Assembly (NCBI RefSeq): GCF_019599145.1
Contig: NZ_CP080647.1
Coordinates: 3,906,001 to 3,970,000, forward strand
DNA from: Streptomyces akebiae
Lineage (GTDB): Bacteria > Actinomycetota > Actinomycetes > Streptomycetales > Streptomycetaceae
Length of the DNA stretch: 64,000 nucleotides
Reading direction: 5' to 3'
Shown: positions 25,015 to 25,215 of the stretch, piece by piece
Numbering within the stretch: position 1 is the first letter of the stretch
Layout: the number at the start of each line of letters is the position of its first letter
Notes under the pieces: generated by a model
What the model saw: the letters and a program-made list of their open reading frames with translations, nothing else
The model's database searches: none
What the model was told of the DNA's origin: nothing
Program-made: the position numbers and the translations under genes

Positions 25015-25020
25015 CATACT
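25015..25020 (+). promoter_or_regulatory. Possible -10 element of the chorismate mutase transcript
   Basis: CATACT ends 7 nt before the leader peptide ATG, so the transcript would be nearly or fully leaderless, a common arrangement for short actinobacterial leader ORFs. The -35 is weak (GACGGG region). Confidence 0.35.
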
Positions 25021-25027
25021 GGGGCGC

Positions 25028-25099
25028 ATGCTTGCGCACTCGACCTTCGTCTTTATCTATGGCACCGGGCCCACCGGCTGCCATGGTCGTGCTGCTTGA
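25028..25099 (+). CDS. Predicted Phe/Tyr leader peptide of chorismate mutase (23 aa)
   Basis: The peptide begins MLAHSTFVFIYGTGP and ends at TGA 25099. Codons 7-11 are TTC GTC TTT ATC TAT: two Phe and one Tyr within five codons, including TTT and TAT, which are rare in this genome. Chorismate mutase makes the precursor of Phe and Tyr, so charging of these tRNAs would be sensed directly. From memory, the M-x-AHST opening resembles the Streptomyces trp leader peptides. A 16-bp terminator-like hairpin begins 20 nt after its stop codon. Confidence 0.65.
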   Translation: MLAHSTFVFIYGTGPTGCHGRAA

Positions 25100-25119
25100 G
25101 CCACTGACAAGCGACTTCC

Positions 25120-25156
25120 CCAGGCGCCCCGGGCCGACAAGGTCCGGGGCGTCTGG
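25120..25156 (+). terminator. Attenuator hairpin before chorismate mutase
   Basis: Arms 25120-25135 and 25141-25156 pair over 16 bp with two G-T wobbles around loop GACAA, followed by CGTTTTCC. It lies between the leader peptide and the structural gene. A competing antiterminator is plausible: GGCCC in the leader (about 25068-25072) can pair with GGGCC in the 5' arm, but that pairing is short. Confidence 0.7.
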
Positions 25157-25215
25157 CGTTTTCCGGGTCTTGCCGCTCCGGGGAGTCCTTTCGACTTCCG
25201 ACGAGGAGCCCAGAG

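Follow-up and report, generated by a model that had tools for sequence, protein, structure and literature searches.

Organization of the locus upstream of the chorismate mutase gene

The stretch of DNA analysed here, which we call the window, comprises 64,000 nucleotides of the 10.5 Mb genome of Streptomyces akebiae. guaA, the GMP synthase gene, lies on its minus strand (23259-24839) and is divergent from a chorismate mutase gene on the plus strand (25216-25503), whose 95-aa product carries the Pfam domain CM_2 and scores above the cut-offs of the NCBIfam models NF005894 and TIGR01808. Between the two genes lie, in order, a CATACT box, a 23-codon ORF and a 16-pair hairpin. The earlier note had described such a series, a 23-codon ORF 7 nt past a -10 element, then a 16-bp hairpin and the chorismate mutase gene, and direct reading of the sequence confirmed every part of it.

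All of these elements are on the plus strand. The -10 element CATACT (25015-25020) is 7 nt ahead of the leader ATG at 25028, and the leader ORF, MLAHSTFVFIYGTGPTGCHGRAA, occupies 25028-25099 with its TGA stop codon included. Its candidate control codons fall within 25046-25060: Phe TTC at 25046, Phe TTT at 25052 and Tyr TAT at 25058. Hairpin 1 (25057-25086), formed by regions 1 and 2, holds the Tyr codon inside its 5' arm. Region 2, GGCCCACCGGCTGCCATGG (25068-25086), is the putative antiterminator strand; to judge from predicted folds and covariation, its alternative partner is the terminator's 5' arm. A second predicted hairpin (25093-25113) spans the leader stop codon. The predicted terminator hairpin, formed by regions 3 and 4, reads CCAGGCGCCCCGGGCC-gacaa-GGTCCGGGGCGTCTGG (25120-25156), has the loop GACAA, and is followed by CGTTTTCC (25157-25164), with a U-run of just four. 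The leader stop and the chorismate mutase gene are 116 nt apart, and the likely ribosome-binding site of the gene is AGGAG at 25204-25208. Simple consensus scans, at their thresholds, scored neither a promoter nor a terminator at the leader site.

No Rfam leader family matched the site at the gathering score; the best match, sbcD RNA, was weak (25.5 bits, where the cut-off is 40) and was rejected. Elsewhere in the window, a c-di-AMP riboswitch (RF00379, 68.3 bits) is found on the plus strand at 10073-10230. A second copy of the leader element in the S. akebiae genome was considered and rejected, as the model search returned one strong full-length match. Of the eight further rows of that search, six were short and covered the terminator only, including one on the opposite strand of the site itself, and two were full-length but weak, with 10.8 and 10.5 bits. 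The genome does hold a second CM_2 domain (L281, G000:C1:7774133-7774369), which lies inside an 876-codon open frame.

Conservation of the leader in Streptomyces

The protein search placed chorismate mutase in 386 of the 392 genomes of the genus. We fetched 110 close-relative loci, 30 from genus genomes and 80 from a named collection, with overlap of species between the two; 79 of the 80 named loci belong to Streptomyces, and the name of the remaining one goes no further than "Actinobacteria bacterium". The region from leader to gene is distinct in 102 of the 110. The leader is kept in all 110 loci, and the peptide reads F-x-F-x-Y in 108. Codon identity is fixed nearly as firmly: the first Phe codon is TTC in 108 loci, the second is TTT in 109, and the Tyr codon is TAT in 110. 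CATACT stands 6 or 7 nt upstream of an in-frame start codon in 105. Conservation of codons and hairpin in close relatives had been proposed as a test of the attenuator, and the leader passed it. A separate sample of the class gave a similar picture, with a full-length model match just upstream of chorismate mutase in 32 of 33 genus genomes; in the 33rd (G654) the protein search returned no match to chorismate mutase.

The claim that the leader uses rare codons held better for Phe than for Tyr. Among the 27 long ORFs of the window TTT accounts for 3 of 348 Phe codons and is rare, and TAT, with 31 of 438 Tyr codons, is less so.

Over most loci the peptide pattern FxFTYGxRPxGCHGRAA is conserved along nearly its whole length, as would be expected if the nascent peptide arrested the ribosome and the codons did not report tRNA charging. 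In six of the 110 loci (L030, L051, L066, L074, L090 and L097), however, the frame is broken past the control codons, after YG, and the bases are nearly unchanged, which indicates that what follows the control codons is conserved as RNA and not as peptide. On account of these frame breaks we rejected the idea that the second half of the peptide is constrained as protein. Leaders of other families, moreover, have little in common beyond a cluster of aromatic residues, and an arrest peptide is in our judgement highly improbable.

Five loci (L005, L074, L097, L030 and L090) share the stretch ATCCGAACC, which precedes the -10 element by roughly 25-30 nt. It is palindromic in L097 (ATCCGaaccCGGAT), was not seen in the window, and is perhaps the site of a regulator.

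Predicted antiterminator pairing with a ribosome in place

None of 200 dinucleotide shuffles folds as well as the leader, for which z is -4.2 and -4.9. An RNAalifold consensus of 47 aligned leaders, which were picked by the author from 90 distinct ones, contains hairpins 1 and 2, the latter around the stop codon, as well as the terminator; seven of the 110 loci were left out of the alignment because they had no exact terminator-loop anchor. In the consensus structure 98.9% of alignment cells pair (99.4% in hairpin 1), compared with 35-48% when the partners are slid. Three pairs of the terminator are changed on both sides in this alignment. Hairpins 1 and 2 hardly vary, no pair in them is changed on both sides, and they are therefore without covariation support within the genus. 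The third base of the TAT codon pairs in hairpin 1, and TAT may be held by that pairing. The TTT codon is outside the helix, and the hairpin does not account for its fixation.

The conserved ORF, its codons, the promoter spacing and the pairing partners, together with the predicted folds, are consistent with classical, ribosome-mediated attenuation. In the scheme that we infer for start site, translation, termination and amino acid response, transcription would begin at the leader ATG (25028 or an adjacent base) and yield a leaderless transcript, so that a ribosome would load at once and follow RNA polymerase. With plentiful charged tRNA-Phe, the ribosome would finish the leader and leave, hairpin 1 would close and occupy region 2, and the 16-bp terminator would form. 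When Phe, and perhaps Tyr, is scarce, the ribosome would wait at TTC or TTT (or TAT) and cover the 5' arm of hairpin 1; region 2 (GGCCC..CGGC.GCC.TGG) would then pair with the emerging 5' arm of the terminator, and RNA polymerase would read through.

An alternative antiterminator fold had been named as a test of this mechanism. We folded 89 of the 90 distinct leaders (L043 was left out) up to the terminator loop and blocked part of each to represent the ribosome. Under the first scheme all sequence up to the ribosome edge, assumed to lie 15 nt past the first base of the P-site codon, was kept single-stranded. At least 8 antiterminator pairs formed in 89/89 leaders with the ribosome at the first Phe, second Phe or Tyr codon, and in 0/89 with the ribosome at the stop codon, the latter because everything upstream of the ribosome edge was blocked. 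Under the second scheme only the footprint was blocked, 14 nt behind and 15 ahead. A strong antiterminator of at least 12 pairs (median 14) was then predicted in all 89 leaders with the ribosome at either Phe codon, so the fold was found as proposed. At the Tyr codon at least 8 pairs formed in 88/89 leaders, with a median of 11 and at least 12 pairs in 12; at the stop codon the corresponding values were 85/89, 9 and 18. Free RNA had at least 8 antiterminator pairs in 29/89 leaders, at least 12 in 22, and hairpin 1 in 67.

GC-rich sequence pairs easily, and 79% of region 2 shuffles reached at least 8 pairs. The threshold of 12 was more discriminating: with the ribosome at the second Phe codon it was reached by 481 of 1780 shuffles of region 2 versus 89/89 real leaders, and the median energies were -26.7 for the shuffles and -34.1 for the real sequences. 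When the whole RNA was folded, the terminator was the minimum-energy fold at every ribosome position tried. Since the terminator wins once the whole RNA is made, the antiterminator would have to win by timing, during synthesis. Because the stop-codon footprint still allows the antiterminator, termination would require the ribosome to depart and let hairpin 1 close.

In these predicted folds the Phe codons set the antiterminator clearly and the Tyr codon weakly. The earlier note had proposed a leader that senses both Phe and Tyr; the folds support the Phe half, and sensing of Tyr is doubtful, as the Tyr-stalled fold is little better than the stop-codon fold. We give nearly an even chance to an attenuator that senses Phe only, in which the Tyr codon is kept for its pairing in hairpin 1. 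Two of the three control codons in the window are Phe, TAT, third base included, pairs in hairpin 1, and the median pair count at Tyr lies between those at Phe and at the stop codon. Corynebacterium glutamicum offers a parallel: in the relevant passages of PMC11802643, its aroF leader, with Phe-Tyr-Phe, is said to answer to Phe and not to Tyr. A ribosome at the Tyr codon nonetheless still frees at least 8 pairs in all leaders except one, and several leaders of other families hold two or three Tyr codons. Sensing of Phe only is compatible with the attenuator reading, and the two are not exclusive.

Aromatic leaders in other families and upstream of other genes

The protein search matched chorismate mutase in 116 of 119 genomes at the level of the order and in 89 of 296 at that of the class; both counts include the genus. 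Usable upstream stretches numbered 59, of which 50 are from outside the genus and nine are from diverged Streptomyces or are second copies. We looked for ORFs of 7-40 codons, with ATG or GTG starts only, that hold three aromatic residues close together. Such an ORF precedes chorismate mutase at 25 of the 50 loci outside the genus, compared with a mean of 0.98 and a maximum of 3 in 60 rounds of shuffling; no ORF of this kind was found at the other 25. We accepted 24 of the 50 as leaders and excluded L244, which lacks the look of a leader. Examples are MLANRRFFYGYGPGSLAIVGC, VSDRRSYFYYGTGSPAAVGRA and VLTYAKFFYGNRTPAPVVV. A stricter aromatic pattern, chosen after the matches had been seen, was present at 23 of the 50 loci, distributed by family as f47 1/1, f48 9/13, f35 1/1, f31 2/2, f14 3/5, f37 2/2, f46 1/1, f4 3/7, f18 1/16, f12 0/1 and f21 0/1. 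At five of six diverged Streptomyces loci (L230, L231 and L233-L235) the leader adds a Trp codon, reading FWFTYG or WFSYG, although chorismate mutase does not lead to Trp; in the sixth, L232, no ORF had the aromatic pattern.

The covariation set consisted of 12 leaders, 11 of the 29 diverged leaders (24 from outside the genus and five from diverged Streptomyces) plus L002, and was the author's choice of one or two per family. Region 2 of each was paired with its own terminator arm and with that of every other leader. The energies of the leaders' own pairs sum to -223.5 kcal/mol, versus a permuted mean of -195.1 (sd 8.3), and 3 of 20000 permutations reach this value; by the longest Watson-Crick match between region 2 and the terminator arm, 39 of 20000 permutations are as good. 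The covarying strands are clear in L255 (GGACTCCGG/CCGGAGTCC), L219 (GGTCCGG/CCGGACC), L238 (AGCCCGG/CCGGGCT) and Streptomyces (GGCCC/GGGCC). For four of the 12 leaders (L217, L240, L245 and L250), the own terminator arm was no better than the mean foreign arm. Taken as a set, the sequences indicate that the antiterminator strands covary between lineages and families.

This covariation, the presence of the leader at every close-relative locus and the predicted antiterminator in every folded leader with the ribosome at Phe argue for the attenuator that had been proposed from the window, and we consider it probable that the leader acts as a ribosome-mediated transcription attenuator of the chorismate mutase gene.

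It is unlikely that the leader works instead in translation, through access to or re-initiation at the chorismate mutase start, with a hairpin that is no working terminator. The short U-run and the terminator scan without a match would suit such a role, as would L263, in whose fold hairpin 1 is seen and a plain terminator is not. But the hairpin in the window ends at 25156, short of the likely AGGAG, 116 nt separate leader stop and gene, and there is covariation between region 2 and the arm of the terminator. It is very unlikely that the element is a small RNA or constitutive terminator that does not respond to amino acids: the strength of the predicted terminator fold speaks for it, but fixed third bases in the Phe and Tyr codons and covarying alternative folds would be useless to it.

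Cysteine leader ORFs of mycobacteria were reportedly the subject of work by Canestrari in 2020. Passages of the published papers describe these and several other systems that resemble the chorismate mutase leader in part. The mycobacterial leaders are likewise small and lie at the 5' ends of biosynthetic genes in Actinobacteria (PMC4633059), but they have Cys codons and no conserved terminator is described for them (PMC1262725). Attenuators of trp genes are described in Actinobacteria (PMC1262725), and the trpL1/trpE leader of Streptomyces lividans TK24, MFAHSTRNWWWTAHPAAH, is a short ORF on a leaderless transcript that carries control codons and has a terminator (PMC8079986), as is predicted for the one described here; it differs in its Trp codons, in the gene it precedes and in having no alignable body after the first codons. 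The AroR leader of C. glutamicum aroF, attributed to Neshat 2014 (cited in PMC11802643), is also actinobacterial and also precedes an aromatic gene (PMC11802643, PMC4046766), but it controls DAHP synthase and not chorismate mutase, with a reported response to Phe only (PMC11802643). The pheA (pheL) attenuator of Escherichia coli also places a Phe leader before chorismate mutase activity, but the enzyme there is a fused mutase-dehydratase (PMC11802643), and no Rfam leader family matches the site in the window.

In its available text, the 2005 survey of Actinobacteria by Seliverstov lists trp, cys, leu/ilv and ileS elements and reports having seen no conserved RNA structures upstream of phenylalanine/tyrosine operons (PMC1262725). 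A 2021 list of S. lividans leader peptides names eight, with none for chorismate mutase in the passages available (PMC8079986), and a paper on TyrA mentions predicted attenuators before tyrA operons (PMC1173090). Chorismate is not mentioned in the main text of transcript papers covering S. griseus, S. coelicolor, S. lividans and S. avermitilis (PMC8914203, PMC4681348, PMC4895711, PMC6742748, PMC8780764), nor in the accessible text of three mycobacterial papers (PMC13236596, PMC4633059, PMC11133741). Among the matches listed by our searches, which covered one open-access library, no published description of a chorismate mutase leader was found. As far as we have searched, then, the kind of attenuator is already known and its association with the chorismate mutase gene is new. 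If the leader is an attenuator, it would fill a gap that the 2005 survey itself states for the phenylalanine/tyrosine operons (PMC1262725), and would place regulation at the chorismate branch point in bacteria known for antibiotics. Chorismate mutase catalyses the first step towards phenylalanine and tyrosine. A few base changes in the paired strands would put the mechanism to a direct test.

Aromatic leaders were also found upstream of other genes. Forty stretches were fetched for distant matches of the Streptomyces model. Four are chorismate mutase leaders (L151, L168, L169 and L181) and 15 are DAHP synthase leaders; the remaining 21 were for the most part simple terminators belonging to other genes and were set aside. 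The DAHP synthase leaders belong to family f17 (L148, L149, L150, L153, L155, L156, L159, L163, L164, L165, L171, L173, L180; L158, L166) and read MQRNFWRFYGYRP..ALR or MRTAWSFWYG..ALR. They lie upstream of DAHP synthase in 15/15 loci, all with a hairpin in the match, and TATAGT stands 7 nt ahead of the ATG in most of them; the gene downstream of L149 scores above the cut-offs of NF006421 and TIGR01361. The codons are Phe, Trp, Phe, Tyr and Tyr in the MQRNFWRFYGYRP form and Trp, Phe, Trp and Tyr in the other. A 24-base pattern for the MQRNFWRFYGYRP form matched 18 of 340 genomes, every one from f17, a family with 33 genomes in the list by our count; only some of the 18 were inspected. In the S. 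akebiae genome itself, the roughly 1.5 kb upstream of its two DAHP synthase genes, its two prephenate dehydratase genes and the second CM_2 frame held no similar leader on the coding strand.

S. akebiae does carry a trp-type leader, MFAHPTQNWWWTAHPAAH (L276, G000:C1:7647621-7647653, minus strand), with TAGGGT 7 nt upstream. It precedes a chorismate-binding gene of the anthranilate-synthase type, for which no NCBIfam model reached its cut-off; a DAHP synthase gene in divergent orientation is found about 1.8 kb away. The earlier note had likened the M-x-AHST start of the chorismate mutase leader to Streptomyces trp leaders. The likeness proved weak: AHST occurs in 9 of the 110 chorismate mutase leaders, and the trp-type leader of the same genome reads MFAHPTQNWWW, with AHPT, and differs after codon 6. 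Judged from the sequences, the two leaders share a -10 element a few bases before the start, and nothing further supports a relationship between them; descent from a trp leader was rejected, given the low frequency of AHST and a leader body that is not alignable.

The codons differ with the gene: Phe, Trp and Tyr before DAHP synthase, which is the first enzyme and common to the branches, Phe and Tyr before chorismate mutase, and Trp only before the anthranilate-synthase-type gene of S. akebiae. All 29 diverged leaders before chorismate mutase have at least one TTT (36 TTT and 25 TTC in total), as do 15/15 leaders before DAHP synthase (23 TTT and 5 TTC), whereas the DAHP synthase genes themselves, at 11 of the 15 loci, have 0 TTT and 40 TTC. 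We tentatively suggest, at somewhat less than even odds, that Actinobacteria own leaderless aromatic attenuators whose codons reflect where in the pathway each gene acts, with the rare UUU as a deliberate, slow and extra-sensitive control codon. That UUU is used so uniformly in the control codons poses a question, open to experiment, about how codons are chosen in attenuators. The rare Phe codon is present in nearly every aromatic leader, from the close relatives (L001-L110) to the 29 diverged leaders and the DAHP synthase loci.
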